NCBI GenBank assembly: GCA_019084245.1
Contig: JAHRFE010000004.1
Coordinates: 248,001 to 312,000, forward strand
DNA length: 64,000 nucleotides
Origin: Hoeflea sp.
GTDB taxonomy: Bacteria > Pseudomonadota > Alphaproteobacteria > Rhizobiales > Rhizobiaceae
Direction of reading: 5' to 3'
Positions 4,721-45,928 of this stretch are shown one piece after another. The notes under the pieces are model-generated. The model made no database searches. It was not told the DNA's origin and was given only the letters and a program-made list of their open reading frames with translations. Position numbers and translations under genes: made by a program. Within the stretch, counting starts at the first letter, position 1; each line of letters begins with the position of its first letter.

Positions 4721-5197
4721 ATGGCAAAGGAAATCGAACGCAAATTCATGGTTGTCAGCGACGCCTGGCGCGACACTGCGGAAACGTCGCGGACGCTGGT
4801 GCAGGCCTATCTGGCGATTGACGGCGAGACTTCGGTGCGCGTGCGTATTCTGGACGGCGACGAGGCGTGGCTCACGGTCAAGCTTGGCGTGTCGGAGATG
4901 ACGCGTGACGAATTCGAGTATCCCGTCCCGCTTGACGATGCGCGAGACATGGTAGAGGCGAGCCGCGGCCGGGTGATCGAGAAGACCCGCCATATCATCA
5001 AATCCGACGCCCATGTCTGGGAAGTTGACGTGTTTGAAGGCGCACTCGCAGGCCTGGTGATGGCCGAGGTGGAGATGGGCGCCGAGGATGAGGCCCCGGC
5101 CCTGCCCGCCTGGCTCGGGCGCGAGGTCACCGGCGATCCGGCCTGGACCAATGCAGTTCTGGCGACACAGGGCTGGCCCGAGGGGATCCACCTGTGA
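4721..5197 (+). CDS. CYTH domain protein
   Basis: A 158-residue single CYTH (triphosphate tunnel) domain. The signature ExExK is seen at the N-terminus as EIERKF, with alternating acidic and basic residues along the tunnel strands (VRVRIL, WLTVKLG, EFEYPVPL, IEKTRHII, WEVDVFEG, MAEVEM). Family members hydrolyse inorganic tripolyphosphate or related triphosphates using Mg2+ or Mn2+ in the cytoplasm. It overlaps the CHAD gene by 4 nt, so the two are translated together; in many bacteria these domains are fused. Which triphosphate is used cannot be told from sequence. Confidence 0.9.
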   Translation: MAKEIERKFMVVSDAWRDTAETSRTLVQAYLAIDGETSVRVRILDGDEAWLTVKLGVSEMTRDEFEYPVPLDDARDMVEASRGRVIEKTRHIIKSDAHVWEVDVFEGALAGLVMAEVEMGAEDEAPALPAWLGREVTGDPAWTNAVLATQGWPEGIHL

Positions 5198-6102
5198 GCT
5201 ACCGCATCCGCCCCGGCAAGGATCTGACGACTGAGGTCGTGCGCATCGCCGAAATCCAGTATGACCGCGCCATCGAGACCCTGGGCGATCAGCCCAAGGG
5301 CCGCTACCAGGCGATCCATGACGCGCGCAAGCGCTTCAAGAAGCTGCGCGGCCTGTTCCGGCTGGTGCGCGATGCCGCCCCGGATTTCTATGAAGCCGAA
5401 AACGCCCGGATCCGCGACATGGCCCGCACTCTGTCCACCGTGCGCGACGCCACGGCGCTGGTCGAGACGCTGGATCATCTTATCGAGAGCCAGGCGACGG
5501 CGGAGAACCACGACAGGCTTTTTTCCATCCGCGCCTGGCTGGCCGACCGCCTCGACCGTATCACCCGGGAGGAGACCGACCTCGAGGACAAGATCGAGGC
5601 CGCCGTCTCGACCTGCGGAAAAGGCATTGAGGCGCTCGCCGCGCTGCGGCTGCCCAAGCGCCGGACCAAGGCGATCGCGCTCCTGGCCAGGGGCACTGCC
5701 AAGAATTACGGCCGCGCCGTCATCGCGCTGCAGACGGCCGTCACCAGCAACGAGGCCGCCGACTGGCACGACCTTCGCAAGCGCATCAAGTACCACCGCA
5801 TGCATGTGCAACTCATGAGCCCCGCCTGGCCCGGCGAATTGGGCCTGCGCGCCGACGTCGCCGATATCGCCGGCGAAGCGCTCGGCGACGACCACGACCT
5901 CGCCTGCCTGGAAACCCTGATCGCCACCGATCCCGGCGCCATCGGCAGCGACGAAGACATCGCGGTCTTGCGCACGGTGATGGCGGCACGCTCGGTCGAA
6001 CTGCACGAACAGATCCGCGGGATCGTCAAGAACCTGCTCCGGGATGACAAGCGCGTTGTGCGAAAAAGGCTTGCGGCACTGTGGGTGGATGCGGCGGGGT
6101 GA
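5194..6102 (+). CDS. CHAD domain protein
   Basis: A 302-residue, all-helical CHAD protein starting at a GTG that overlaps the CYTH stop codon. The conserved histidine/basic helices are visible as IHDARKRFKKLR near residue 42 and WHDLRKRIKYHRMH near residue 190, together with LGDDHDL near residue 230. CHAD domains bind inorganic polyphosphate granules. As a split partner of the upstream CYTH protein it probably acts in polyphosphate or tripolyphosphate handling. Gene end and start are clear; the role is inferred from the family. Confidence 0.9.
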   Translation: MSYRIRPGKDLTTEVVRIAEIQYDRAIETLGDQPKGRYQAIHDARKRFKKLRGLFRLVRDAAPDFYEAENARIRDMARTLSTVRDATALVETLDHLIESQATAENHDRLFSIRAWLADRLDRITREETDLEDKIEAAVSTCGKGIEALAALRLPKRRTKAIALLARGTAKNYGRAVIALQTAVTSNEAADWHDLRKRIKYHRMHVQLMSPAWPGELGLRADVADIAGEALGDDHDLACLETLIATDPGAIGSDEDIAVLRTVMAARSVELHEQIRGIVKNLLRDDKRVVRKRLAALWVDAAG

Positions 6103-6277
6103 AGGCGGGTTACTCGCCAAGAAAGTGGCTGTCCACCATCTGAAAGCTGGGGCGGCGCCATGGCGGCGTGCTCTGGTCAACTCCATCGCAGTTCGCCGGG
6201 CGCAGGCCAGTTTCCTCGGAAACACGGCAGCAATCGGCGGAATGACCGGGAACGGCCTTCACGTTGATACGGATCAA

Positions 6278-6304
6278 GGCGCATATGCGCCAAACAGCAT
6301 ATTT
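6278..6304. promoter_or_regulatory. Candidate ArsR operator
   Basis: GGCGCATATGCGCC (6278-6291) is a perfect 14-bp palindrome, followed by a second GCATAT half (6297-6302). The stretch ends 9 bp before the arsR start. ArsR/SmtB sites often contain CATATG-like palindromes. CATATT at 6298-6303 could be the -10 element of a promoter with almost no leader, as no Shine-Dalgarno sequence precedes the ATG at 6313. Confidence 0.5.
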
Positions 6305-6312
6305 GTCTCTGC

Positions 6313-6600
6313 ATGCAGGAGATTCTGACAGCCCTTTCCGATCCGACCCGCCGCGCGGCGCTTGCCCTTTTGTGGGGCGGGAGGGAGCTTTGCGTCTGCG
6401 AACTGATGACGCGACTGGGCGCCAGCCAGAGCCGGATGTCGCGGCACATGAAGGTCTTGCGCGAGGCCGGTCTGGTTCTCGACCGGCGCGACGCCCAATG
6501 GGTGCGCTATCGCCGCAATCCCGATTTCGCGCCGGAATTGGCAACAATCATCGAAGCGGTGCTTGCCGCAGAAACCATATCCCAAAGGAAGGTCGCATGA
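6313..6600 (+). CDS. arsR: ArsR/SmtB-family arsenite-type repressor
   Basis: A 95-residue winged-helix repressor. It opens with LTALSDPTRRAALALL and carries ELCVCEL at residues 25-31, closely matching the ELCVCDL motif whose cysteines bind As(III) or Sb(III) in classical ArsR. Recognition-helix residues follow (LGASQSRMSRHMKVLREAGLV). It should leave DNA when the metalloid binds and so derepress the five genes downstream. Its stop overlaps the permease start by 4 nt. No ribosome site is visible, and the start is almost on the predicted transcription start. Confidence 0.88.
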   Translation: MQEILTALSDPTRRAALALLWGGRELCVCELMTRLGASQSRMSRHMKVLREAGLVLDRRDAQWVRYRRNPDFAPELATIIEAVLAAETISQRKVA

Positions 6601-7655
6601 CCATCGAGACCTACGACCCGGCTCCCCCACGCGGGACGCCGGACTGGCTCTGGTACCTGGGTGTGCCCACGGCGGCGGTGGCGCTCTACCTTGTCTATGG
6701 CCAGTTGATCCCGTTCTCGGAATGGGTCACCTCACTGTTTCCGGTGGCGCGTGACAGCCATACCGGCGAGGCCATTGCCTTTTTCGTCTATGACGTGCCG
6801 AAGGTGCTTTTGCTGCTGACCGGCATCGTCTTTGTCACCGGCGTGCTGCGCAGCTGGTTCAGCCCGGAAAAGACCCGCGCGATCCTGGCCGGCAAGCGGG
6901 AGATCTGGGGCTACCCGCTGGCCTCGCTGCTGGGTGTGCTGACGCCGTTCTGTTCCTGCTCTTCGGTGCCGCTGTTCATCGGCTTCGTCTCGGCTGGCAT
7001 TCCGCTGGGCGTGACCTTCTCCTTCCTCATCGCCGGGCCGATGGTTGGACCGGTGGGTCTCGGTCTGCTTTACGGTCTCGTCGGCTGGCAGATCGCCACC
7101 CTCTACCTCGTCTTCGGCTTCACCATCGCCACCGTTGCAGGCTTCGTGCTGGGCCGGATGGGGCTCGAGCGCCATCTGCAGGACTGGGTGCGCGAGCTGA
7201 ACGCCGGGCCTGTTGGCGACCTGCCGGAAGAACAGCTCACCCTGGTCGACCGCTTGAAAATCGGGGCAGAGCAGGTCCGCGAAATCGTCGGCAAGGTCTG
7301 GATCTGGGTGCTGGTCGGCATCGGCATCGGCGCGGCGATTCACGGCTATGTGCCTGAAGCGATGATGCTCCAGATCATGGGCGGCGAGGCCTGGTGGTCG
7401 GTGCCGGTCGCAGTGGCCGTGGGCGTGCCGATGTACACCAATGCGGCCGGCGTCATCCCCATCGTCGAGGCGCTCCTGGGCAAGGGCGCGGCGCTCGGCA
7501 CGACGCTCGCCTTCATGATGTCGGTGATCGCGCTGTCGCTGCCCGAAATGATCATTCTCAAGCAGGTGCTGAAGCTGCGGCTGATCGCGATCTTCATCGC
7601 GGTCGTCGCGGGCGGCATCCTCGCCACCGGTTTTCTGTTCAACGCAATTCTGTAA
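6597..7655 (+). CDS. ArsP-like permease (DUF318/PF03773 type)
   Basis: A 352-residue polytopic inner-membrane permease with about eight to ten hydrophobic helices. TPFCSCSSVPLF at about residues 116-127 matches the cysteine-rich motif of this permease family, some members of which (ArsP) export trivalent organoarsenicals. A hydrophilic loop lies at about residues 180-225. ATG 6597 is fixed by the 4-nt overlap with arsR. Control by an arsenite-type ArsR makes metalloid efflux the leading idea. Other family members sit next to mini-thioredoxins without any proven arsenic role, so the substrate is not certain. Confidence 0.8.
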   Translation: MTIETYDPAPPRGTPDWLWYLGVPTAAVALYLVYGQLIPFSEWVTSLFPVARDSHTGEAIAFFVYDVPKVLLLLTGIVFVTGVLRSWFSPEKTRAILAGKREIWGYPLASLLGVLTPFCSCSSVPLFIGFVSAGIPLGVTFSFLIAGPMVGPVGLGLLYGLVGWQIATLYLVFGFTIATVAGFVLGRMGLERHLQDWVRELNAGPVGDLPEEQLTLVDRLKIGAEQVREIVGKVWIWVLVGIGIGAAIHGYVPEAMMLQIMGGEAWWSVPVAVAVGVPMYTNAAGVIPIVEALLGKGAALGTTLAFMMSVIALSLPEMIILKQVLKLRLIAIFIAVVAGGILATGFLFNAIL

Positions 7656-7669
7656 CCCGGAGAGACCCC

Positions 7670-8302
7670 ATGAGCACCAACCAGCATTGGGATACCGCCT
7701 ACACGGCACGTGATGCGAAGGCGCTGACATGGTTCGAAGAGACGCCCGAGGCGTCCATTCGGCTCGTGCGCCAGATGATGCCTGCCGGTGGGGCGCTGGT
7801 CGATATCGGCGGTGGGTCGTCCGCACTGGTTGACCATTGCCTTGATGCGGGGATCGGGCCGGTCACTGTTCTGGATTTATCGGCAGAAGCTCTTGCGATC
7901 ACCCAGGCCCGGCTGGGTGATCGTGCTGACGAGGTGTCCCTTGTTGTCGGTGATGTGCGCGATTGGCAACCTGATCGGCTCTACGATCTTTGGCATGATC
8001 GTGCGGCCTTTCATTTCCTGACCGACATCAAGGATCGTCGCAGCTATCTGCGCACGCTTGATGCGGCGCTTCGTCCCGGCGGCGTGGCGATCATTTTGAC
8101 ATTCGCTTCAACCGGTCCCGCCACCTGTTCAGGCTTGCCGGTGCAACGCTACGCTCCGTCTGAACTGAACGAAATGTTTGCCAATCTCGCGCCAGGGCTG
8201 CTGGTTCCGCTCCATTCAGAGTTGCTTGCCCACAGGACTCCAAAAGGAGCGGTGCAGGACTTTCAGATCTCAGTTTTCCAAAAGAAGGAGACGACACCAT
8301 GA
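7670..8302 (+). CDS. Class I SAM-dependent methyltransferase
   Basis: A 210-residue cytoplasmic methyltransferase with N-terminal HWDTAY, the SAM loop LVDIGGGSS near residue 46, and VLDLSAEAL as the acidic second motif. It overlaps the mini-thioredoxin gene by 4 nt and lies 14 bp after the permease gene. It lacks the conserved cysteine set of ArsM arsenite methyltransferases, so direct arsenite methylation is not supported; a thiol, selenium or small-molecule acceptor is possible. The codons are visibly richer in A/T and T-ending forms than in the neighbours, suggesting a different origin. Confidence 0.8.
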   Translation: MSTNQHWDTAYTARDAKALTWFEETPEASIRLVRQMMPAGGALVDIGGGSSALVDHCLDAGIGPVTVLDLSAEALAITQARLGDRADEVSLVVGDVRDWQPDRLYDLWHDRAAFHFLTDIKDRRSYLRTLDAALRPGGVAIILTFASTGPATCSGLPVQRYAPSELNEMFANLAPGLLVPLHSELLAHRTPKGAVQDFQISVFQKKETTP

Positions 8303-8535
8303 AAACCGTCAATATTTATGGCCCCGGCTGCGCCAGATGCGAAACCACCGGGAAAATGGTCAAGGAGGTCGCCGCCAGACTGGGTATCGAGGTCGAGGTT
8401 TTAAAGGTCACCGATGCGAAATCCATGGCCATGGCGGGTGTCATGTCGACACCGGGCATCTCGGTGGACGGCAAGCTGGTCCATGCCGGCGGTCTGCCGG
8501 ATGCGGGAAAGCTGGAAGGCTGGTTGACCACATGA
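8299..8535 (+). CDS. Small CxxC thioredoxin-like protein
   Basis: A 78-residue protein with a thioredoxin-fold start (VNIYGPG) and a CARC redox pair at residues 11-14. The cis-Pro region TPGISVDG is near residue 50. It resembles the very short redox-active disulfide proteins that often accompany PF03773 permeases. It could reduce a cysteine in the permease or relay electrons to a thiol-bound substrate. It overlaps genes on both sides by 4 nt, so all three are probably made in fixed ratio. Confidence 0.85.
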   Translation: MKTVNIYGPGCARCETTGKMVKEVAARLGIEVEVLKVTDAKSMAMAGVMSTPGISVDGKLVHAGGLPDAGKLEGWLTT

Positions 8536-9443
8536 TCCGGATCATCACCGCCGCGATGGCTGTTGCCATTCCCACGCTCGCCCTGGGCCAGCCACTGGAG
8601 ATCCAACCCGTCACCGACGGCGTCTGGGCCATTGTCGGCGAGACCGAGCAGCGCAGCCCGGAAAATCTTGCCAACAACGCAACCTTCGGCCTCGTCGTGA
8701 CCGATGCGGGCGCGGTGCTGATCGATCCGGGCGGATCCTACAAAGGCGCGGACATGCTGCATGACGCGGTCCGCAGCGTCACCGACCAGCCGGTGAGATT
8801 TGTGATCAACACCGGCGGGCAGGATCACCGCTGGCTCGGCAACGGCTATTGGCAGGCGCAGGGCGCCACCGTGATCGCATCCGAGGCGGCAGTGGCCGAC
8901 CAGCAGGCCCGCGGCTCGATGCAGATGAGCGCGCTTGCGCAACTTCTCGGCGACGGGATTGCGGGAACCGAGCCGTCCCATGCCGACATCACTTTCGAGA
9001 GCGACTACAGGCTCGATTTCGGCGGCCTGAGCTTTCAGATCATGCATCGCGGCTCCGCCCACACGCCGGGCGATGCCTTCGTCTGGCTCGAAGACCGTGA
9101 TGTGATGTTCACCGGCGACATCGTCTATGTCGACCGTATTCTCGGCAACGGACCGGCGCGCAACATCAGGAGCTGGATCGAGGTGTTCGACGCCATGGCG
9201 GCGTTCGATCCGGCCCACATAGTACCGGGACACGGCAACGCCACCGATCTGGCGACCGCGCGGCGCGACACCCATGACTATCTCGTCAACCTGCGCACGC
9301 AGATTGGCGCACTGATCGAAGCGAGCGGCGACATCATGGAGGCACCGAGCATCGATCAGTCGGCCTGGGCCTATCTCGAACAGTTCGACAGTCTCGCAGG
9401 CAGCAACGCCCAGGCGACCTATGAAGAGATGGAGTGGGAATGA
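8532..9443 (+). CDS. Secreted metallo-beta-lactamase-fold protein with altered metal motif
   Basis: A 303-residue protein with an N-terminal signal peptide (cleavage likely after LALG or LGQP), so probably periplasmic. The MBL fold is clear: GLVVTDAGAVLIDPGG, then FVINTGGQDHRW at about residues 90-101, AHTPGDAF, MFTGDIVYVD and IVPGHGN. The usual HxHxDH is reduced here to GGQDH; the Asp-His pair and later His and Asp residues remain, but the first two His are absent. The metal site must therefore be incomplete or rebuilt. Family relatives act in thiol and sulfur chemistry (glyoxalase II, SoxH-like). Start ATG 8532 overlaps the preceding stop. Confidence 0.8.
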   Translation: MIRIITAAMAVAIPTLALGQPLEIQPVTDGVWAIVGETEQRSPENLANNATFGLVVTDAGAVLIDPGGSYKGADMLHDAVRSVTDQPVRFVINTGGQDHRWLGNGYWQAQGATVIASEAAVADQQARGSMQMSALAQLLGDGIAGTEPSHADITFESDYRLDFGGLSFQIMHRGSAHTPGDAFVWLEDRDVMFTGDIVYVDRILGNGPARNIRSWIEVFDAMAAFDPAHIVPGHGNATDLATARRDTHDYLVNLRTQIGALIEASGDIMEAPSIDQSAWAYLEQFDSLAGSNAQATYEEMEWE

Positions 9444-9847
9444 TGCTGGAATACAAGGTCACCGCCCGCCGCATCGACAGCCATGGATCGGAAGCCGCAG
9501 CAAAAGAGGCGCGGATCGTGCTCGACACGGACATGGCGGGCCGCGACGACGCGTTCAACCCGGCCGAGATGCTGCTCGCCAGCCTTGCCGCCTGCATGCT
9601 GAAAGGCGCCGAACGGGTGGCGCCAATGCTGGATTTCGATCTGCGCGGCATGGAGGTCAGCCTGCATGGCCAGCGCCAGGACAGACCGCCGAAGATGGTC
9701 CGCATCGATTACGAGATCGTGGTGGAGACCGATGAAACCGATCAGCGGCTCGAGCTTCTGCACCGGAACATCCTCAAATACGGCACCATCTCCAACACGC
9801 TGGTCGAGGCGACGGAACTGGTCGGGCGCATCCGTAGAAAGAGCTGA
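9440..9847 (+). CDS. OsmC-family protein with a single cysteine
   Basis: A 135-residue OsmC-like protein. The central helix LLASLAACMLKGAERV carries the first cysteine (about residue 52). The second position, usually Cys in KYC-type motifs, is Gly here (LKYGTISNTL). Two-Cys members are thiol peroxidases, so a one-Cys form may bind a thiol or act differently. Start is ATG 9440 (an ATGATG pair), overlapping the MBL stop. It is the last gene of the operon. Confidence 0.82.
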   Translation: MMLEYKVTARRIDSHGSEAAAKEARIVLDTDMAGRDDAFNPAEMLLASLAACMLKGAERVAPMLDFDLRGMEVSLHGQRQDRPPKMVRIDYEIVVETDETDQRLELLHRNILKYGTISNTLVEATELVGRIRRKS

Positions 9848-10069
9848 ACCTCAGGCCGTTCCGGACAAGGCCGGGCGGCAACGCCGCATCTTTCGTCCGC
9901 GCAAACATCGCGGAGCTTGATGCATCCAACTTGGCAAGGGATCTGCATTGACGCAACACGGACCCGGCGATCCGAGACACCTCAAAACATGAGTGAAACA
10001 CTCTTGATTAATCCAATTCGGCTCTGTAGGGAAACCTGAGAATTTTAGTCATGTTATGGAGACCGCAAT

Positions 10070-11083
10070 ATGTTGAACAAGAGCCTTCTGGTCATGGGGA
10101 CTGTCGCCGCGACATTCGCCTGCACCGCGCTGAAAGCCGAACCCACCGCCTATCCGCTGACGATCGAGAATTGCGGGCAGTCGGTCACCTTCGACCGGGC
10201 GCCAAAGAATGCCGTCGCACTTGGCCAGAACAGCGCCGAGATCCTTCTGCTTCTGGGCCTTGAGGAGCGCATGGCAGCCACCGCATTCTGGCCCAACAGC
10301 GTGCTGCCCGATCTGGAAGAAGCCAACAGCAAGGTGGAGATCCTGACCGTCGAGTTCCCGACGCTCGAGGCGGTGTTGTCGAAGCAGCCGGATTTCGTCG
10401 CCGCGATGCTGGTCACCCTGCTCGGGCCGGACAGCAAGGTTGCCAAGCGCGAGGATTTCGAAACGCTCGGCGTTCCGACCTACCTGTCACCCAGCGCCTG
10501 CGCGACCACCAAGAACGCCACCGACGCCTATGGCAGCCGCGAAAACCTGTGGAGCATGGACCTGCTCTACCAGGAGATCGACGATCTCGCGCGGATCTTC
10601 GACGTCGCCGACCGCGGCGAGGCGCTGATCGCCGACTTCAAGGCCCGTGAGACGGCCCTTCGCGCCGAGTTCGCCGGCAACGACGACCTCACGTTCCCGT
10701 TCTGGTTCTCCAGCCCCTCGCCGGCCGACGACGCCTATCTCGGCGGCGGCAACGGGCCTTCGGGCTATATCGCCGACGTGCTGGGCGGCTCGAACGCGAT
10801 CCAGACCGAGGCAGACTGGCCGACGCTCGGCTGGGAGGGCATCATGGCCGCAGACCCGAAGGTGATCGTGGTGGCGCAGGTCGATCGCAACCGCTGGGAC
10901 CTCGACAAGGCGGAAAACAAGATCGCGTTTCTGACCTCCGATCCGACGGTCAGCCAGATGGAAGCCGTCAGCGCCGGGCGCATCGTCACCATGAGCGGAG
11001 CCTCGATGAATCCGAGCATCCGCACGCTCTACGGCGCCGAGGAAGTGGCCAGGCAACTCAAGGCTCTCGACCTCACGCGATGA
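10070..11083 (+). CDS. Metal-chelate ABC importer, binding protein
   Basis: A 337-residue periplasmic protein with a signal peptide (MLNKSLLVMGTVAATFACTA, then LKAEP). The FecB/BtuF-type domain starts with YPLTIENCGQSVTFDRAPKNAVALGQNSAEILLLLGL. It overlaps the permease gene by 4 nt and forms a complete importer with the next two genes. Substrates of this class are siderophores, haem, cobalamin or other chelates. The two upstream genes and CATTKNATDAYG segment resemble sequences sometimes labelled putative F420-0 transporters, but that label is weak in an alphaproteobacterium. A short hairpin GAGTG-AAA-CACTC (9991-10003) lies in the leader. I see no riboswitch. Confidence 0.85.
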   Translation: MLNKSLLVMGTVAATFACTALKAEPTAYPLTIENCGQSVTFDRAPKNAVALGQNSAEILLLLGLEERMAATAFWPNSVLPDLEEANSKVEILTVEFPTLEAVLSKQPDFVAAMLVTLLGPDSKVAKREDFETLGVPTYLSPSACATTKNATDAYGSRENLWSMDLLYQEIDDLARIFDVADRGEALIADFKARETALRAEFAGNDDLTFPFWFSSPSPADDAYLGGGNGPSGYIADVLGGSNAIQTEADWPTLGWEGIMAADPKVIVVAQVDRNRWDLDKAENKIAFLTSDPTVSQMEAVSAGRIVTMSGASMNPSIRTLYGAEEVARQLKALDLTR

Positions 11084-12117
11084 CATCGGGGCCTTCTGAG
11101 AGCGGAACGCTCCGGCTCGCGCTGCTGCTGGCGCTGTGCCTCGCCGTGCTGGCCCTGGCGATTGCCTTGGCCACCGCGATCGGCGACTACAGCATTGGAC
11201 TGGGCACGGTGGCGCTCGCGGTCACCAACGGGCTCGGCCTGACTTCGGCCGAAATCTCGCCGATCGAGCAGAGCGTGGTCTGGAACCTGCGCCTCAGCCG
11301 GGCGCTGGTGGCCGCACTTGCGGGCGCGGGACTGTCGATCTGCGGCGCCATCCTGCAGGCCCTGCTGCGCAATGCGCTGGCCGAGCCCTTCGTCCTGGGC
11401 GTGTCGGCCGGCGCCTCCACCGGTGCGGTCTCGGTGATCGTGCTTGGGGTCGGCGCCGGCGGCCTGTCGCTGTCGCTGGGTGCATTCGCCGGCGCGTTCT
11501 CGGCTTTCGCGCTCGTCGCATTGCTCTCCAACGGCGCCACCAGCGGCCCCAACCACACCATCCTTGCCGGCGTCGCCGCCTCGCAGCTGTTCAACGCGCT
11601 CACCTCCTATATCGTCACCACATCCGGCGACGCGCAGCAGGCGCGTGACGTCATGTTCTGGCTTCTGGGCAGCTTCGGCGGCGTGCGCTGGCCGGATTTC
11701 CAGCTTCTCCTGGTGGTGGTCGTGATATCGCTCGCAATCTGCATCTTCATGGCCCGCGCCCTCGACGCCTTCACCTTCGGCGACGAGGACGCCGCCGCAC
11801 TCGGCATTCCGGTGGCGCGGATCCGCCTGATCATGTTCGCCGTGACAGCCATCCTGACGGCCACCATCGTCTCCATGGTGGGCGCCATCGGCTTCGTCGG
11901 CCTGGTGGTGCCGCACGCCGCGCGCTACGTGATCGGGCCGTTGCATCTGCGGTTGATCCCCGCCTGTGCCGTTGTCGGCGCCATCTTCATGGTGTGCGCC
12001 GACATCGTCTCGCGGGTGATCGTGGCGCAGCAGACTGTGCCGATCGGTGTTGTCACCGCCCTTGTCGGGGTGCCGTTCTTCGCCATCATCCTCTACCGTG
12101 CGAGACCCCAGTCATGA
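11080..12117 (+). CDS. FecCD-type ABC importer permease
   Basis: A 345-residue inner-membrane permease with about ten helices, as expected for BtuC/FecCD proteins. Diagnostic segments are NLRLSRALVAALAGAGLSICGAILQ near residue 70, NPLA-like NALAEPFVLGVSAGASTGA, and the coupling region with FGDEDAAALGIPV. FVGLVVPHAAR near residue 270 is the classical FecCD signature. One permease gene is present, so it presumably acts as a homodimer with the ATPase encoded next. Confidence 0.9.
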   Translation: MTSGPSESGTLRLALLLALCLAVLALAIALATAIGDYSIGLGTVALAVTNGLGLTSAEISPIEQSVVWNLRLSRALVAALAGAGLSICGAILQALLRNALAEPFVLGVSAGASTGAVSVIVLGVGAGGLSLSLGAFAGAFSAFALVALLSNGATSGPNHTILAGVAASQLFNALTSYIVTTSGDAQQARDVMFWLLGSFGGVRWPDFQLLLVVVVISLAICIFMARALDAFTFGDEDAAALGIPVARIRLIMFAVTAILTATIVSMVGAIGFVGLVVPHAARYVIGPLHLRLIPACAVVGAIFMVCADIVSRVIVAQQTVPIGVVTALVGVPFFAIILYRARPQS

Positions 12118-12878
12118 TCGTCGTCGCCGAAAACCTCTCCTGGGGCGTCAGGAACAAGACAATCGTTTCCGAGGTGTCTCTGTCGGTCGCGCCGGGCGAG
12201 ACCCTGGGCCTGATCGGGCCCAACGGATCCGGCAAATCTTCGCTCCTGCGTCTGCTGGCGGGTCTCAAGCGCCCCATGTCCGGGCGGGTGAAAATCCAGG
12301 ACCGGGACATTGCGGAGGTTCCGCGCCGCGTCCTGTCGCGGCAGGTCGCCTTCGTGCAGCAGAACGCCGCCACCGACACCAATGTCAGCGTGCTCGATGT
12401 GGTCCGGCTGGGCCGGACGCCGCATCGCTCCGCTTTGTCGGGCTGGTCCGCCGACGACCAGGCGGCGGTGACGACGGCGCTCGAGCGGGTCGACATGACC
12501 GATCGCAAGGCACAGGCCTGGCAGACCCTGTCGGGCGGCGAGCGCCAGCGTGTTCATATCGCCCGCGCCCTGGCGCAGTCGCCGAAGATCCTGTTTCTCG
12601 ACGAGCCGACCAACCATCTCGACATCCATCACCAGATCGAGATCCTGCGGCTGGTCCGCGATCTCGACCTGACCAGCGTGGTGGCGTTGCACGATCTCAA
12701 TCTCGCGGCGATGTTCTGCGACCGGATCGTGGTGCTGCAGGAAGGCCGCGTCTCCGCCTGCGGGTCACCGGAAACGGTGCTCACCGAGCCGCTCTTGCGC
12801 GATGTCTTCCGGGTTGAGGCCGGCGTCAGCGCGTCTCCGTTCCACAGCCGCCCGCACATTCATTTCATGGCCGGTTGA
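12114..12878 (+). CDS. FecE/BtuD-type ABC importer ATPase
   Basis: A 254-residue cytoplasmic ATPase. Walker A GPNGSGKSSL near residue 38, Q-loop VAFVQQNA, signature LSGGERQRVHIARAL near residue 138, Walker B ILFLDEPTNHLDI and the H-loop VALHDLN are all intact. It overlaps the permease gene by 4 nt and ends the importer operon. The C-terminus is His-rich (HSRPHIHFMAG). Confidence 0.92.
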   Translation: MIVVAENLSWGVRNKTIVSEVSLSVAPGETLGLIGPNGSGKSSLLRLLAGLKRPMSGRVKIQDRDIAEVPRRVLSRQVAFVQQNAATDTNVSVLDVVRLGRTPHRSALSGWSADDQAAVTTALERVDMTDRKAQAWQTLSGGERQRVHIARALAQSPKILFLDEPTNHLDIHHQIEILRLVRDLDLTSVVALHDLNLAAMFCDRIVVLQEGRVSACGSPETVLTEPLLRDVFRVEAGVSASPFHSRPHIHFMAG

Positions 12879-12935
12879 GGCTTCTCCAGGATCTTGCACA
12901 ATTTCACCGGGTCCGGCCGGATTGGGGCCGGTTGA

Positions 12936-13650
12936 TCAGACTGATCCTTTATCGGAAAAATTCCGCATCAGATAGTCGACTCCGTCATGATCGCCCATGA
13001 TGACGCCGATGCGCTGATGCAGCCCTTCAGGTTGACATCCATGATGCGCCTTGTGTCAACAGCCGCCTTTCCGCCAGCCTGCTCAATCAGATAGGCCATT
13101 GGATTGGCTTCATACATGAGCCTGAGCTTGCCGGGTTTTGCCGGATCGCGCCCGTCCCAGGGGTAGAGAAACATGCCGCCTCGCTTGAACATGCGGTGGA
13201 TGTCGGCGACCATCGATCCGGTCCAGCGCATGTTGAAATTGGCCGCGCGCAGGCTGCCCGCGCCTGCCATGCAATCGGCGATGTAGCGCCGCACCGGCCC
13301 GGCCCAATGCCGCTCGTTCGACATGTTGATCGCAAACTCACGGTTGCCGGCGGGGATGTGGATCCGCTCATGGGTCATGACCCAGGAGCCCATTTCCCGG
13401 TCGAGCGCGAATTCGTACACACCGGTTCCCACCGACAGCACCAGAAATGCCTGCGGCCCGAACACGGCGTAGCCGGCGGCGACCTGGCGCCTGCCCGATT
13501 GCAGGAAATCCTGTTCCGTGACTTCGCGACCCAAGACATCGGCAGGCGCCACCAGAACCGAGAAGATCGTTCCCACCGTCAGGTTGACGTCGATATTGCT
13601 GGAGCCGTCGATCGGATCGACCAGCAGCAGGTATTCCCCGCAACCCCGCC
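12936..13650 (-). pseudogene. fbp: Broken class 1 fructose-1,6-bisphosphatase
   Basis: On the minus strand the frame reads [18 protein letters not shown] and then TVGTIFSVL, the metal- and substrate-binding core of class 1 FBPase, on through [18 protein letters not shown]. The first roughly 110-130 residues are missing: before GEYLLLVD the frame has no family similarity and no good start codon. Near 13020 one base is lost. The annotated frame ends as [13 protein letters not shown]..., but shifting by one base gives [20 protein letters not shown] and runs to a stop at 12936, the normal C-terminus. A single C missing from GGC-CTG would explain it. Two independent lesions make an active enzyme unlikely. 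Confidence 0.78.
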
Positions 13651-18753: not shown

Positions 18754-19728
18754 ATGATGTTCAAAAACTACTTGCTGGCTGCTGCCAGTGTGCTGGCACT
18801 GTCAGCGTTCACGACCGGTTCCGCTCTCGCAGAGTGCGAACGCGGCGACCTTGATGCGCAATACTGCGATGTTGACGGCGATCTGATCGCCGACATCCCG
18901 ACCGATCCGGCCCAACTTTCCGATCCGGACACTCTGATCTTCGCCTATACGCCGGTTGAAGATCCGGCAGTCTACAAGGAAGCCTGGGCCGATTTCCTGG
19001 TCCACCTTGAAAAGGTCACCGGCAAGAAGAACGAGTTCTTCCCGGTTCAGTCCAATGCCGCCCAGATCGAAGCCATGCGCTCGGGCCGCCTGCACATCGC
19101 CGGCTTCAACACCGGCTCCAACCCGCTGGCCGTCAATTGCGCCGGCTTCCGTCCCTTCACCATGATGGCAGCGGCGGACGGCAGCTTCGGCTACGAGATG
19201 GAAATCATCACCTATCCGGATTCCGGCATCGAAAAGGTCGAGGACATCAAGGGCAAGGTCATGGCCTTCACCTCGGAAACCTCGAACTCCGGCTTCAAGG
19301 CGCCATCCGCGCTGCTCAAGGCCGAATACAACATGATAGCCGGCACCGATTTCGAGCCTGCCTTCTCCGGCAAGCATGACAACTCGATCCTCGGCGTCGC
19401 CAACAAGGATTACCCCGCCGCAGCGGTCGCCAACTCGGTGATGGCCCGCATGATCGAACGCGATGTGGTCAAGGCCGACCAGATCAAGTCGATCTACAAG
19501 TCGCAGACCTTCCCGACCACCGGCTACGGCGTGGCGCACAACCTGACGCCCGAGCTCCAGGACAAGATCAAGGAAGCCTTCTTCACCTTCGAATGGGAAG
19601 GCTCGTCGCTGCAGAGCGAATTCGAGAAGTCCGGCGAAGGCAAGTTCCTCGAAATCGACTACAAGAGCTTCTGGGACGTCGTCCGCAAGATCGATGCGGC
19701 CAACGACGTCAAGTACACCTGCGGGTAA
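18754..19728 (+). CDS. phnD: Phosphonate/phosphate ABC importer binding protein PhnD
   Basis: A 324-residue periplasmic binding protein with a clear signal peptide (MMFKNYLLAAASVLALSAF, then TTGSALAEC) and GGGAGG ribosome site. The mature part begins with a Cys-containing, acidic segment (CERGDLDAQYCDVDGDLIAD) and then the PhnD domain TLIFAYTPVEDPAVYKEAW; SNPLAVNCAGFRPF and FTSETSNSGFKAPSALLKAEY are typical ligand-contacting regions. It heads a rightward operon. The substrate could be phosphonates or another phosphorus compound; this family is broad. Confidence 0.9.
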   Translation: MMFKNYLLAAASVLALSAFTTGSALAECERGDLDAQYCDVDGDLIADIPTDPAQLSDPDTLIFAYTPVEDPAVYKEAWADFLVHLEKVTGKKNEFFPVQSNAAQIEAMRSGRLHIAGFNTGSNPLAVNCAGFRPFTMMAAADGSFGYEMEIITYPDSGIEKVEDIKGKVMAFTSETSNSGFKAPSALLKAEYNMIAGTDFEPAFSGKHDNSILGVANKDYPAAAVANSVMARMIERDVVKADQIKSIYKSQTFPTTGYGVAHNLTPELQDKIKEAFFTFEWEGSSLQSEFEKSGEGKFLEIDYKSFWDVVRKIDAANDVKYTCG

Positions 19729-19741
19729 CCCCGTGCCCTCC

Positions 19742-19770
19742 GGCGCCGCACTTCGGTGCGGCGCCTTTTT
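19742..19770 (+). terminator. Strong intrinsic hairpin between phnD and phnC
   Basis: GGCGCCGCAC, TTCG loop, GTGCGGCGCC, then TTTTT: a perfect 10-bp stem with a UUCG tetraloop and a T-run, 13 bp after the phnD stop and 18 bp before the phnC start. It probably ends most transcripts after the binding-protein gene, with partial read-through into the membrane genes. Confidence 0.9.
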
Positions 19771-19787
19771 CATGCTGACGGGACCCC

Positions 19788-20588
19788 ATGCTCGAACTCA
19801 AGAAACTGACAAAGACCTATCGCACCGGCGACAGGGCCCTGCACGAAGTTGACCTGATTGTCCCCAACGGCCAGGTCATGGCTTTGATCGGTCCATCGGG
19901 TGCAGGCAAGTCGACGCTGATCCGCTGCATCAACCGGCTGGTGGAACCCACCTCGGGCAGCGTCATTCTCGACGGTACCGACATCACCGCACTGGGCTCG
20001 ACCGGCTTGCGCAAGATGCGGCGCAAGATGGGCATGATCTTTCAGGAATATGCGCTGGTCGAGCGGCTGACGGTGATGGAGAACGTGCTGTCGGGACGTC
20101 TCGGCTATGTCGGCTTCTGGCGGTCGTTCCTGCGCAAGTTTCCCCAGTCCGATGTCGACGAGGCGTTCCGGCTGCTTGACCGCGTCGGACTTCTGGCGAT
20201 GGCCGACAAGCGTGCCGACGAACTCTCCGGCGGCCAGCGCCAGCGCGTCGGCATCGCCCGGGCGCTGATTCAGAACCCCCGGCTGCTTCTGGTCGATGAA
20301 CCGACCGCCTCGCTTGATCCCAAGACCTCGCGCCAGATCATGCGGCTGATCTGCGAATTGTGCGCCGAACGCGACCTTGCCGCCGTCATCAACATTCACG
20401 ACGTGGCGCTGGCGCAGATGTTTGTCGAGCGCATCGTCGGCCTGAAGGCAGGCGAACTCGCCTTCGACGGCAAGCCCACCGAGATGGGCGAAGACGTGCT
20501 GACCCGCATCTATGGCGAGGAAGACTGGCAGGCCACCATCCGCAAGGTCGATGAGGAAGAGGTCGAAGCCGAGGTTGCGGCGCAATGA
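19788..20588 (+). CDS. phnC: Phosphonate ABC importer ATPase PhnC
   Basis: A 266-residue ATPase with Walker [19 protein letters not shown]-loop [21 protein letters not shown], signature [16 protein letters not shown], Walker [14 protein letters not shown] and H-loop INIHDVALA, all in the PhnC style. The C-terminal tail is acidic ([14 protein letters not shown]). It overlaps the first phnE gene by 4 nt. Start ATG 19788 follows the terminator hairpin closely. Confidence 0.93.
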
Positions 20589-21400
20589 CCACGGCCACGC
20601 TGGAAGCGCGGCTGGGGAACGGATGGAAGAAACCGCCGTTCATCCCGAACCCGGCACTGCGCTGGAGCCTGTTCATCGGCGGCCTCATCTATCTCGTGCT
20701 TGCCATAAGCTCGATCGACGTCAACTGGACACGTGTCGCCGAGGGCCTGAGCCGCGGCTGGGCCTTCGTGACGGCGTTCTTCAATCCCGATTTCGTCTCC
20801 CGCGGCGGCGACATCTGGGATGGCATTCTCGAAAGCATCATCATCACCATCACCTCGACCGTGGTCGGCATCGCCCTTTCGGTCCCGATCGGGCTGGGTG
20901 CTGCGCGCAACATCGCGCCGCTGCCGGTCTATCTGGTCTGCCGGGCCATCGTCGCGCTTTCACGGGCGCTGAACGAGATCATCGTCGCCATCCTGCTGGT
21001 GGCGATCTTCGGCTTCGGCCCGCTCGCAGGCTTCCTGACCCTGTCGTTCGCCACCATCGGCTTCATGTCGAAGCTGCTCGCCGAAGACATCGAGGAAATG
21101 AGCAAGGCGCAGGCCGAGGCGATCCGCGCCACCGGCTCGTCCTGGCTGCAATGGATCAATTACGGCGTCCAGCCGCAGGTGATGCCGCGGCTGATCGGGC
21201 TGTCGATGTACCGGCTCGACATCAATTTCCGCGAATCCGCTGTCCTCGGCCTGGTCGGCGCCGGCGGCATCGGGGCGACGCTCAACACCGCCTTTGACCG
21301 CTATGAGTTCGACACCGCCGCGGCGATCCTCCTGATCATCATCGTCACCGTGATGGCGCTCGAATATCTCTCCGGCATCATCCGGGCAAAGGTGCAATAA
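20585..21400 (+). CDS. phnE1: Phosphonate ABC importer permease PhnE (first copy)
   Basis: A 271-residue permease with about six helices and the PhnE coupling loop around [41 protein letters not shown] near the C-terminus is characteristic. It overlaps phnC by 4 nt and the second permease by 1 nt. Two different PhnE proteins probably form a heterodimeric channel. Confidence 0.92.
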
Positions 21401-22218
21401 TGCCGGTATCCACCTCCCCAGACGGCGCAAAGATCTGGCAGTTGCGCACCCGCAACCAGACGCTCACCCGCTGGGCCGCCTATCTCGTGGCAGTCGCCAT
21501 CTTCATGTGGTGCTGGCAGCGCATTTCCGAAGCCACCACCTGGTTCTTCGTCTGGGATGCGCCCAGGATTGCCGCCGACATTGGCGGCCGCGCCTGGCCG
21601 CCGCGCTGGTCCTACATGGACAATCTGTGGGGTCCGCTCTGGGACACGCTCAACATGGCAACGCTCGGCACGCTGCTGGCCCTGGTGATGGCCGTGCCGA
21701 TCGCGTTTCTGGCGGCGCGCAACACCACGCCAAGCGCGCTGTTCATCAGGCCGGTGGCGCTGTTCATCATTGTCGCCACCCGCTCGATCAATTCGCTGAT
21801 CTGGGCGCTGCTGCTGGTGGCCATCGTCGGCCCCGGCGTCTTTGCCGGACTGATGGCGATCGCGCTGCGCTCGATCGGGTTCTGCGCCAAGCTGCTCTAT
21901 GAGGCAATCGAGGAGATCGACGAGAAGCAGGTCGAGGCGATCACCGCCACCGGCGCCAGCCGCTGGCAGGTGATGGCCTTCGGCATCGTGCCGCAGGTGA
22001 TGCCCGCCTTTGCCGGCATCAGCGTCTTCCGCTGGGACATCAACATCCGCGAATCCACCGTGCTCGGACTGGTCGGCGCCGGCGGCATCGGCCTGCAACT
22101 GCAATCCTCGCTCAACACGCTGGCCTGGCCGCAGGTAACGCTGATCCTGATCGTCATCCTGGCCGCAGTTCTGGTCGGGGAGTGGGTGTCCGCCAAGGTT
22201 CGGGGCGCCATCATTTGA
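21400..22218 (+). CDS. phnE2: Phosphonate ABC importer permease PhnE (second copy)
   Basis: A 272-residue PhnE paralogue. The N-terminus is longer and hydrophilic ([20 protein letters not shown]), then helices and the coupling loop EAITATGASRWQVMAFGIVPQ and [21 protein letters not shown]. Start and previous stop share one base (TAATG). It resembles the first permease along its length, suggesting an old duplication. Confidence 0.92.
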   Translation: MPVSTSPDGAKIWQLRTRNQTLTRWAAYLVAVAIFMWCWQRISEATTWFFVWDAPRIAADIGGRAWPPRWSYMDNLWGPLWDTLNMATLGTLLALVMAVPIAFLAARNTTPSALFIRPVALFIIVATRSINSLIWALLLVAIVGPGVFAGLMAIALRSIGFCAKLLYEAIEEIDEKQVEAITATGASRWQVMAFGIVPQVMPAFAGISVFRWDINIRESTVLGLVGAGGIGLQLQSSLNTLAWPQVTLILIVILAAVLVGEWVSAKVRGAII

Positions 22219-41799: not shown

Positions 41800-41813
41800 T
41801 TGATGCAGATCAA
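41800..41813. promoter_or_regulatory. Perfect FNR/Dnr/NarR-type box
   Basis: TTGAT-GCAG-ATCAA, matching the consensus at all ten half-site bases. It lies in the 252-bp divergent region, about 77 bp before the uspA-nar operon start and 163 bp before the CRP/FNR-family regulator gene. It is likely the activator site of the nitrate reductase operon. Confidence 0.85.
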
Positions 41814-41868: not shown

Positions 41869-41975
41869 CGGACAAAAGCATCAATCCACCGGGTGACAAT
41901 TATCAATTCATGTGCGAGCAATTGAAAGGATCTGTATTGAGATCCGGCAAGTCGGGATCGAGGGGAGAACACGAC

Positions 41976-42710
41976 ATGCGGGAAGAAGACAAACCCGAGA
42001 TTCGCAAATTGCTTCTGTTCCGGGACATGAGCACGGAGAATTTCGATAGGCTCATGCAGGCAGCCTATGCGCAGACCTTTCCGGCGCAGCTCGAATTGAT
42101 CCGCCAGGGCGAGCCGGCGGATTTCCTGCACATCATGATGGAAGGCACGGTGGAGCTTTTTTCCGGATGGCGCGACCGCGAAACCACCATGGCGGTGGTG
42201 AGGCCCGTATCAACCTTCATTCTTGCCGCCTGCATCAAGGACGCCCCCTATCTGATGTCGGCGCGCACGGTGGAGAAGTCGCGCATCATCATGATCCCGG
42301 CCAAGGATCTCAGAGCGACTTTCAGGCTCGATCCCGAGTTCGCCGTCTCGACCATCACCGAACTGGCGAGTTGCTACCGCTCCGTGGTGCGCCACGCCAA
42401 GAGCCTGAAACTTCGCAATTCGAGGGAGAGGGTTGCAGCCTATATCTATCGTCAGTCGAGCCTGGCCGGAAACGCCGCGAGCTTCGTCCTGCCCGTGGAG
42501 AAACGGCTGCTGGCTTCGCTGCTCGGCATGACGCCCGAGAATTTTTCGCGCGCCATCAAGTCGCTCCAGTCCGATGGCGTCGCCATGGACGGCATGCGCA
42601 TCATCATCACCAACATGAAATCGCTTGAAGCGGTCGCAGGCCCCGACACCCTTATCGATGGGTCCGACCCCCTCTCAGGTTTCCCCGCGGCTACAGCGCC
42701 GTCCATTTAA
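41976..42710 (+). CDS. CRP/FNR-family regulator, NarR/Dnr-like
   Basis: A 244-residue regulator with an N-terminal cyclic-nucleotide-binding-like barrel (FPAQLELIRQGEPADFLHIM, EGTVELFSG) and C-terminal winged helix (VEKRLLASLLGMTPENFSRAIKSLQSDG, recognition Glu-x2-SR as in FNR). It lacks the N-terminal Cys cluster of FNR, so it should not sense oxygen through Fe-S. NarR (nitrate/nitrite) or Dnr/NnrR (NO via haem) are the closest functional types. Divergent from the nar operon with a perfect box between, it is the likely activator. RBS AGGGGAGAA precedes ATG 41976. Confidence 0.87.
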   Translation: MREEDKPEIRKLLLFRDMSTENFDRLMQAAYAQTFPAQLELIRQGEPADFLHIMMEGTVELFSGWRDRETTMAVVRPVSTFILAACIKDAPYLMSARTVEKSRIIMIPAKDLRATFRLDPEFAVSTITELASCYRSVVRHAKSLKLRNSRERVAAYIYRQSSLAGNAASFVLPVEKRLLASLLGMTPENFSRAIKSLQSDGVAMDGMRIIITNMKSLEAVAGPDTLIDGSDPLSGFPAATAPSI

Positions 42711-44866: not shown

Positions 44867-45928
44867 TCAATCTGCGGTCTTTGAAGCAGTCCGGCGGCCA
44901 AGCGCCGGCGAGGTGTCGTACCAGCCCTTGGAGCGGTTGACGACCCAGACCAGCGACAGCATCACCGGCACTTCGATCAGCACCCCGACAACGGTGGCGA
45001 GTGCGGCTCCCGAATTGAAGCCAAACAGGCTGATCGCCACGGCCACGGCGAGCTCGAAGAAGTTGCTGGCCCCGATCAGGGCGGAGGGGCCGGCGATGAC
45101 ATGGGTCTCGCCCGCCACGCGGTTGGCAAAGTAGCCGATGCCGAAGATCACATAGGTCTGGATGATGATCGGCACCGACAACAGTACGATGATGATCGGC
45201 TGGGCCAGGATCGCCTGGCCCTGGAAGGCAAACAGCACCACAAGCGTTGCCAGGAGCGCCAGGATCGACAGCGGCTGCAGCTTCGAAAGAAGGCCCTGAA
45301 GCGCGGCCTCCCCTCCTCTTGCCAGAAGCCGGTTCCGCAGGATCTGGGCGATGATCACCGGCACCACGATGTAAAGCGCCACCGACAGCATCAGGGTTTC
45401 CCAGGGAACCGTGATTGCCGAAATGCCCAGAAGCAGCGCCACAATCGGGGCAAAGGCGAACACCATCACAAGATCATTGACGGTCACCTGGCTGAGCGTG
45501 AACAGCGGATCCCCCCTGGTCAGGTTGCTCCAGACGAAAACCATGGCCGTGCAGGGCGCGGCCCCCAGCAGGATCAGGCCGGCGATGTAACTGTTGATCT
45601 GGTCACCCGGCAGATAGGGCACGAACAGCCAGCCGATGAAGAACCAGGCCAGCACCGCCATGGTGAACGGCTTGATCGCCCAGTTGACAACGAGGGTGAT
45701 CGAGATGCCGCGCCAGTGCCGGCTCACCTGTCCGAGCGAGCCGAAGTCGATCTTGACCAGCATCGGAATGATCATCAGCCAGATCAGAACCGCGACCGGC
45801 AGATTGACATTGGCGATCTCGGCGGACCCGATCAGTTGGAAGAATGCCGGGAAGACATAGCCAAGGGCGATGCCTGCAACAATGCACAGCGCCACCCAGA
45901 CTGTCAGGTATCGTTCAAATGTCGACAT
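44867..45928 (-). CDS. arsB: ACR3-family arsenite efflux transporter
   Basis: A 353-residue inner-membrane carrier with ten helices, exporting As(OH)3. GAAPCTAMVFVWSNLTRGDP near residue 120-140 contains the conserved Cys needed for transport; PVIIAQILRNRL is also typical. In some systems this gene is called acr3. No arsR or arsC is beside it; the only ArsR in the window is at 6.3 kb. The upstream region has repeats that may be operators. Confidence 0.9.
   Translation of the reverse strand: MSTFERYLTVWVALCIVAGIALGYVFPAFFQLIGSAEIANVNLPVAVLIWLMIIPMLVKIDFGSLGQVSRHWRGISITLVVNWAIKPFTMAVLAWFFIGWLFVPYLPGDQINSYIAGLILLGAAPCTAMVFVWSNLTRGDPLFTLSQVTVNDLVMVFAFAPIVALLLGISAITVPWETLMLSVALYIVVPVIIAQILRNRLLARGGEAALQGLLSKLQPLSILALLATLVVLFAFQGQAILAQPIIIVLLSVPIIIQTYVIFGIGYFANRVAGETHVIAGPSALIGASNFFELAVAVAISLFGFNSGAALATVVGVLIEVPVMLSLVWVVNRSKGWYDTSPALGRRTASKTAD

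Follow-up and report, generated by a model that had tools for sequence, protein, structure and literature searches.

Arsenic operons are usually described as being switched by arsenic alone. Among the systems closest to the locus analysed here, ArsEFG, which Chen, Zhang and Rosen are said to have described in 2019, reportedly serves roxarsone and nitarsone detoxification, and ArsP of Campylobacter jejuni is an organoarsenical efflux permease of the Pfam family PF03773 (ArsP_1). According to one review, ArsP is encoded in an ars operon and exports methylarsenite and trivalent roxarsone, not inorganic arsenite, and there are two groups of arsP whose functions are probably different (PMC6205960); another source describes ArsG as a transporter for efflux and attributes resistance to organoarsenicals to ArsE and ArsF (PMC9144182). 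In this study, we analysed an arsR-led operon of Hoeflea sp. that encodes a PF03773 permease and an ArsE-type thioredoxin. The operon lies in a stretch of 64,000 nucleotides (assembly GCA_019084245.1, contig JAHRFE010000004.1, positions 248,001 to 312,000 of the forward strand), the whole of which is referred to as the window, with positions counted from its first letter.

The operon consisted of six open reading frames (ORFs) in a row on the + strand at 6313-9847. The families given to them in the initial annotation, which had been made from the sequence alone, were borne out by Pfam and NCBIfam. Also as annotated, all junctions but one (4/5) were 4-nt ATGA overlaps, the sole gap being the 14 nt between the permease and methyltransferase genes. 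The features of the locus are as follows.

6264-6277, + strand: FNR/FnrL-type box TTGATACGGATCAA (TTGAT-N4-ATCAA), a consensus match conserved upstream of relatives
6280-6301, + strand: predicted ArsR operator CGCATATGCG-N6-AGCATA, overlapping the predicted -10 element CATATT at 6298-6303
6313-6600, + strand: arsR, ArsR/SmtB repressor with ELCVCEL (Pfam HTH_5, 52 bits; NCBIfam NF033788, 86.6 bits, cut-off 55)
6597-7655, + strand: PF03773 (ArsP_1) permease with the TPFCSCSSVPLF motif (Pfam, 245 bits)
7670-8302, + strand: class I S-adenosylmethionine (SAM) methyltransferase, a rare addition (Pfam Methyltransf_25; TPMT weak)
8299-8535, + strand: ArsE/MtH895-type mini-thioredoxin with C11-A-R-C14 (Thioredoxin_3; TIGR00412, 73.1 bits, cut-off 62)
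8532-9443, + strand: SoxH-like protein of the metallo-β-lactamase (MBL) fold, probably exported, with TGGQDH (Pfam Lactamase_B, 61.5 bits)
9440-9847, + strand: OsmC-family protein with a single Cys, C52 (Pfam, 54.5 bits, cut-off 27.5)

We consider that this locus is probably an accessory arsenic-detoxification operon, which would respond to two inputs, low oxygen and a trivalent metalloid. By family, the window permease resembles C. jejuni ArsP in belonging to ArsP_1; unlike ArsP, it is accompanied by an ArsE-type thioredoxin, by optional SoxH-like and OsmC genes and by an FNR-type box. The likeness to ArsEFG is one of family name, the thioredoxin family being called "MTH895/ArsE" by NCBIfam. 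Clusters located in arsenic islands (NT-25, Rhodobacter capsulatus, and Comamonas and Citrobacter plasmids) share the order of the core genes and encode a related permease and a related thioredoxin; OsmC also occurs in those of NT-25 and Comamonas, and a rhodanese fills the slot of the SoxH-like MBL. Unlike in the window, no arsR lies directly upstream of the permease gene in NT-25, Comamonas and Citrobacter. The initial annotation knew of no described pathway with exactly this composition, and among the matches listed in the open literature we found no description of a permease-thioredoxin-MBL-OsmC operon or of FNR control of an ars operon. That novelty does not, however, extend to the core: both the permease and the thioredoxin are of known families, which annotation already names after arsenic genes, and their pairing is a known one.

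A conserved ArsR-permease-thioredoxin core

A scan of a genome collection with the permease alignment yielded 74 loci, whose genes were then called by one fixed script. The loci were nearly all alphaproteobacterial, mostly from Rhodobacterales, with at least L090, L095, L108 and L110 falling outside. Only 44 of the 74 had the full 15-kb length; because contig ends shortened the other 30, the gene and arsenic-marker counts are lower bounds. The permease gene was preceded by arsR in 65 loci and followed by the thioredoxin gene in 71 (70 by the script and L055, where the script missed it owing to a methyltransferase gene between the two). The SoxH-like MBL gene was found in 41 loci, full length and stop-free in 35; it was in pieces or truncated in several others (e.g. 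L041, L049, L051, L062 and L088), and in L104 a stop lay within the frame used. The OsmC gene occurred in 26 loci, a rhodanese gene in one by the script, and the methyltransferase gene again in one, L055 of Marivita lacus (83% identity). This conservation in other genomes indicates that the gene arrangement is not due to chance. As ArsR, permease and thioredoxin were constant and the rest variable, these three form the conserved core of the cassette, and MBL, OsmC and methyltransferase are optional additions. The close permease family is not general in the class, since only 12 of 385 genomes sampled across it, the Hoeflea genome included, had a permease at E 1e-60 or better.

The linkage, whose confinement to this strain would have told against the initial annotation, thus extended to 74 related loci, but the six genes did not hold together as the single conserved system that it had envisaged. 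That all six constitute one obligate new pathway, which methylates, captures and exports a thiol-reactive compound, is suggested by the tight 4-nt overlaps in the window and by the same gene order in L055, where OsmC looks cut. We rejected this six-gene pathway as hardly credible, because the methyltransferase recurred in only one of the 74 loci and the MBL and OsmC genes not only came and went but were also fragmentary in several. On the permease tree, moreover, the window permease grouped (support 100/99) not with that of L055 but with that of Hoeflea BRH_c9, whose operon is the closest to the window operon and is without the methyltransferase, and the presence of the MBL required at least eight changes, with contig-cut loci scored as lacking it.

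The ELCVCEL stretch noted in the initial annotation was present in ArsR. The classical motif of the R773/E. coli type, ELCVCDLC, has a Cys-Val-Cys near the DNA-binding region and a third cysteine, and the latter was absent from this ArsR. Of 75 ArsR sequences, counted with their duplicates, 73 had the pair Cys27/Cys29 (C-V-C or C-I-C), and in one further sequence it was shifted one residue on. Judged from these residues, the pair fits a sensor of trivalent arsenic or antimony, in line with the metalloid sensing proposed earlier.

The permease is a member of ArsP_1, which it matched at 245 bits over residues 57-349 (gathering score 32.3), and P117, C119, S120 and C121 were invariant in 30 aligned sequences. 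It fell short of the equivalog models in NCBIfam, scoring 126.6 bits against SaoE (cut-off 325) and 100.7 bits against the SO_0444 Cu/Zn efflux model (cut-off 300). Its AlphaFold2 model was modest (pLDDT, a per-residue confidence score, 75.4; of the five models, two scored near 75 and the others 49-57); no PDB structure matched it below E 0.001, and a PDB sequence search was likewise empty. The SO_0444 match could be taken to mean that the cassette exports Cu/Zn or another divalent cation and sits by chance in mixed resistance islands, and a cation diffusion facilitator (CDF) transporter gene follows in 9 of the 74 loci by the script and a P-type ATPase gene follows the cassette in Hoeflea IMCC20628. 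Nevertheless, the score is far under the 300-bit cut-off, ArsR has an arsenic-type site and CDF genes stand behind the cassette in only those nine loci, so that we regard cation export as improbable. The thioredoxin matched the MTH895/ArsE model TIGR00412 (73.1 bits; cut-off 62) with C11-x-x-C14, and its profile matched PDB 1ilo at E 3.4e-12.

Two arrangements were seen behind the cassette. A CDF gene stood directly or nearly directly behind osmC in L034, L043, L045-L047, L053, L056, L084, L093, L094, L120 and L123. A second operon of ArsR, a PF03773 permease and an ArsK-like protein of the major facilitator superfamily (MFS) was often found (L043, L044, L046, L047, L074, L102 and others); its permease was about 24% identical to the cassette permease, the best model for its MFS protein was ArsK, below cut-off, and its arsR had no FNR-type box ahead of it in any of 14 cases.

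The composite FNR-type/ArsR promoter sequence

Just upstream of arsR, a perfect FNR-type box lay 2 bp ahead of an ArsR-type operator, together making a composite site at 6264-6289 that was the only copy in the window. TTGAT-N4-ATCAA is the FNR consensus. This predicted composite promoter, missed by the initial annotation, is the new element of the locus and its most distinctive feature. The common pattern upstream of arsR in the related loci was TTGAYN4RTCAA, 2 nt, CGCATATGCG, 6 nt and CGCATA. After removal of duplicates (75 to 71 distinct upstream sequences), the exact box TTGAYN4RTCAA was found in 51 of 71 sequences and, with one mismatch, in four more; by chance, 0.025 sequences would be expected from mononucleotide shuffles and about 0.5 from the mean density of boxes in the loci, in which the cassette boxes are included. 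In 42 of the 51 sequences with an exact box, the ATG of arsR lay 33-36 nt past it. In the 38 sequences selected for both box and palindrome, in which the letters used for selection are therefore fixed, the palindrome began 2 nt after the box in 36, and the inner four bases were mostly ATGG. The second half-site CGCATA, which was outside the selection, was kept in 32-37 of the 38 at each position, and the four bases before the box varied freely. A second layout, in which the box was set further upstream, occurred in other relatives.

In the same loci, the box was found upstream of none of the genes of two other arsR types (0/14 and 0/5), ACR3 (0/8), CDF (0/9), AioB (0/5), the second permease (0/11), SulP (0/2) and PstS (0/2); as some of these control genes are internal to operons, the fair comparison is with the two arsR rows. 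Whole-genome tests covered 50 of the 74 loci, from 49 genomes, the 24 left out including many on short contigs. The strict composite TTGAYN4RTCAANGCGCATATGC occurred in 26 of the 49 genomes, once in each, and always 307-319 bp upstream of the cassette permease. A promoter that seemingly needs both low oxygen and a metalloid is common to many alphaproteobacteria and stands only before the cassette in these genomes. Because a double-input promoter specific to the cassette would indicate when its cargo matters, it makes the question of the substrate testable.

A sigma-70 scan of 5900-13500 gave no promoter, although an activator-dependent promoter with a poor -35 element would escape such a scan. 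Class II FNR promoters have their box centred near -41.5. If this spacing applies here, the predicted transcription start falls at or next to the arsR ATG, so that the message is possibly leaderless.

The genome of the window contained 16 perfect TTGATN4ATCAA sites, the cassette site included. A family scan covered the genes next to 12 of the remaining 15. Boxes preceded an FnrL-like gene (226 bits, cut-off 300), ccoG (over cut-off) and the gene for cytochrome bd oxidase subunit I (712 bits, cut-off 968), which fit an FNR/FixK regulon; others preceded FtrB activator, TehA-like, acetate-CoA ligase, YchF and MacA-like genes, and three gave no family. This genome encoded at least two FnrN-like proteins in which CxxC-x7-C stood close to the N-terminus (a protein was read in three of eight Crp/Fnr loci). 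Hence, a box near the promoter and an FNR-like protein, two marks of an FNR-regulated promoter, were both found, and the composite site would be bound by FNR and ArsR; other Crp/Fnr-type regulators may also read the same box. Another perfect box of the FNR type lay in the window at 41800-41813, just before an FtrB-type Crp/Fnr activator gene (41910-42710, + strand).

Arsenic-gene neighbourhood and proposed function

At least one arsenic marker was found in the flanks of 28 of the 74 loci, or 19 without counting the second permease operon. Within 10 kb of the cassette lay 6 of 13 AioA copies (0.06 expected) and 6 of 40 over-cut-off ACR3 copies (0.19 expected; 48 genomes, L074 and L093 left out). 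These expectations, and the Poisson tests with them, presuppose genes spread uniformly over genomes of 4.3 Mb, and related sequences are not independent. As a small control, mercury reductase (MerA) gave 0 of 6. The cassette or a relative stood beside arsenite oxidase on a Pseudosulfitobacter plasmid, beside ArsH, ACR3 and ArsC in NT-25, beside ArsJ/GAPDH and ACR3 in Rhodobacter capsulatus, beside ArsD, ArsA, ACR3 and ArsC in Comamonas, and beside ArsJ, ArsH and ACR3 in Neotabrizicola; other plasmid copies, such as those of Hoeflea IMCC20628 and Paracoccus seriniphilus, had no arsenic neighbour in the stretch examined. The metalloid context suggested in the initial annotation was thus supported by the enrichment of AioA and ACR3 and by the plasmid copies among ars genes. 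The cassette is a compact ArsR-led gene set of many marine bacteria that is often near arsenic-resistance genes. On the Pseudosulfitobacter plasmid, the gene at L034:12916-15909 is labelled "arsenate reductase (azurin)" large subunit and matched arsenite_ox_L at 1083 bits, so that the label can mislead.

Several observations weigh against an arsenic operon with two inputs, in addition to the assumptions of uniform placement and independence and the CDF and P-type ATPase genes mentioned above. No arsenic marker was found in the examined flanks of 46 of the 74 loci. In the Hoeflea genome itself, the cassette lay outside any evident arsenic island, the sole over-cut-off ACR3 being 35 kb away, and the window held no arsC, arsH, arsJ or other arsenic marker of the reference set beyond that ACR3 gene. 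The permease matched no ArsP-named NCBIfam model, only SaoE and the Cu/Zn exporter, far below cut-off. With regard to the promoter, 16 of the 71 upstream sequences had no box even with one mismatch, including that of the Pseudosulfitobacter plasmid (L034) beside arsenite oxidase; the strict composite site was absent from 23 of the 49 genomes; and the FtrB, TehA-like, acetate-CoA ligase, YchF and MacA-like genes behind other boxes are not known to be FNR targets. Finally, MBL relatives at 53-57% identity (L006-L008 and L035) stood without the cassette in the stretches examined, so that the MBL protein is not bound to it.

Weighing these points, we still favour an accessory arsenic-detoxification operon. 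As to the binding of FNR and ArsR, the substrate and the reaction of each enzyme, we infer the following scheme. At low oxygen, to which the FNR-type box points, an activator of the FNR family (FnrN/FnrL) would bind the box at 6264-6277, and ArsR on the adjacent operator would block the promoter until a trivalent metalloid binds Cys27/Cys29; the promoter would accordingly act as an AND gate, requiring both low-oxygen activation and relief of ArsR repression. The constant sensor, permease and ArsE-type thioredoxin point to export of a trivalent thiol-reactive metalloid. The permease would export a trivalent arsenical, which may be a methylated or other organic As(III), an As(III) thiol complex or a thioarsenical, and the thioredoxin would keep either the cargo or the cysteines of the permease reduced, or deliver the cargo. 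Thiol or sulfur handling would be the part of two optional add-ons, the one-Cys OsmC in the cytoplasm and the SoxH-like protein, which is probably periplasmic; a rhodanese takes the SoxH-like slot in some relatives, and a methyltransferase is inserted between permease and thioredoxin in the window strain. If this is true, an orphan SoxH-like MBL family with a remodelled metal site and the one-Cys OsmC proteins would be tied to arsenic.

Accessory proteins and flanking genes

The N-terminus of the MBL protein looked, by eye, like a Sec signal peptide, and the fold was backed by a profile and by an AlphaFold2 model (pLDDT 80.8; the other four models 68-71), whose best PDB match was 8d2z at 24% identity. 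The protein fell outside TIGR04559, the model of quinoprotein relay zinc metallohydrolase 2 (161.7 bits, cut-off 280). The motif HxHxDH was present in 21 of 21 relay-type relatives (L012-L032), against TGGQDH in the window and ENGQGH in 7 of 7 SoxH-type proteins. In the profile alignment, Gly, Gln and His occupied the usual MBL ligand positions 116, 118 and 120, respectively, with H177, D196 and H234 taken as later ligands. These last three, together with T94, G95, G96, D98 and H99, were invariant in 30 of 30 MBL orthologs, and Q97 was nearly so. The altered metal motif pointed out in the initial annotation is therefore real and conserved, but as a distinctive trait it is partly common to SoxH-type proteins. 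The Paracoccus proteins of the sox locus, recorded as MBL fold and taken to be SoxH from their position, were 37-38% identical to the window protein; like it, they were without HxHxDH and had Q and H at the same positions. The window protein differed from them in TGGQDH versus ENGQGH and in an arsenic versus a sox neighbourhood. From the alignments and the model, the MBL protein belongs near SoxH, with a remodelled metal site, and may act as an enzyme or as a binding protein.

The kinship with SoxH bears on the possibility that reactive sulfur (sulfide, persulfide or thiols), not arsenic, is what the cassette exports or handles, ArsR sensing thiol stress. The SoxH-like protein, rhodanese, OsmC and thioredoxin are all of sulfur-type families, the SoxH-type MBLs of Paracoccus and Ruegeria (32-38% identity) have sox and YeeE genes as neighbours, and FNR control would suit sulfidic, oxygen-poor places. 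Such a role is nonetheless unlikely in view of the arsenic-type CVC site of ArsR and of AioA and ACR3 being enriched beside the cassette; furthermore, apart from the thioredoxin, the sulfur-type genes vary and the arsenic-type core is constant.

The OsmC protein matched its domain model (54.5 bits; cut-off 27.5) but lacked the pair of catalytic cysteines of the OsmC/Ohr peroxidases: at the presumed second-Cys stretch it read GTISN, and only C52 was present, invariant in 10 of 10 aligned sequences, as expected from its earlier description as a one-Cys OsmC.

The absence of an arsenate reductase and of a classical ArsM, also stated earlier, was upheld. No arsenate reductase was present among the six operon ORFs, no ArsM family appeared among the Pfam or NCBIfam matches of the methyltransferase, and it showed no similarity (best E 0.41) to a Sulfuricella protein annotated as arsenite methyltransferase. 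In 15 loci from an extended set of methyltransferase relatives, searched with the reference set only, ars genes lay beside one, P-type ATPases beside two and distant SulP matches beside two. Given the single locus with ars genes, the case for an arsenic-linked methyltransferase family was weak, and we did not adopt it; a metal(loid) role for part of the family is hinted at. Kinship of the window methyltransferase with the H2S methyltransferase MddH (PMC12904073) was considered as a lead only. The relatives L122, L190, L191 and L196 adjoined P-type ATPases or an arsC-ACR3 pair.

Low oxygen is where arsenicals in trivalent, methylated and thiolated form persist longest, and no dedicated resistance operon is known for the detoxification of thiolated or methylated trivalent arsenicals. 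The variable proteins are of sulfur type, and the rhodanese in the MBL slot of four clusters suggests that sulfur handling around the exported compound is interchangeable. We tentatively raise a narrower form of the arsenic reading, which seems possible to us at best: a dedicated anoxic export module, with the FNR AND ArsR gate, the permease-thioredoxin pair and helpers (the SoxH-like protein or a rhodanese, OsmC and at times the methyltransferase) by which sulfur is stripped off, transferred or methylated, a module whose cargo would be thiolated or methylated trivalent arsenicals formed mainly in sulfidic, oxygen-poor water.

A scan of the whole window at Rfam gathering scores gave no RNA elements. 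CYTH and CHAD domain genes (4721-6102, + strand) lay directly upstream of the cassette, and a siderophore-type ABC importer (10070-12878, + strand) was encoded beyond it, the binding protein of which matched EitA at 498 bits, short of the 640-bit cut-off. The ACR3 gene of the window was located at 44867-45928 on the - strand (384.8 bits, over cut-off). At 18850-22215 (+ strand), PhnD, PhnC and one PhnE were 70-76% identical to the set of the Martelella plasmid L116, and a second PhnE was 39% identical; on that plasmid, the Phn set adjoins arsC and the cassette.

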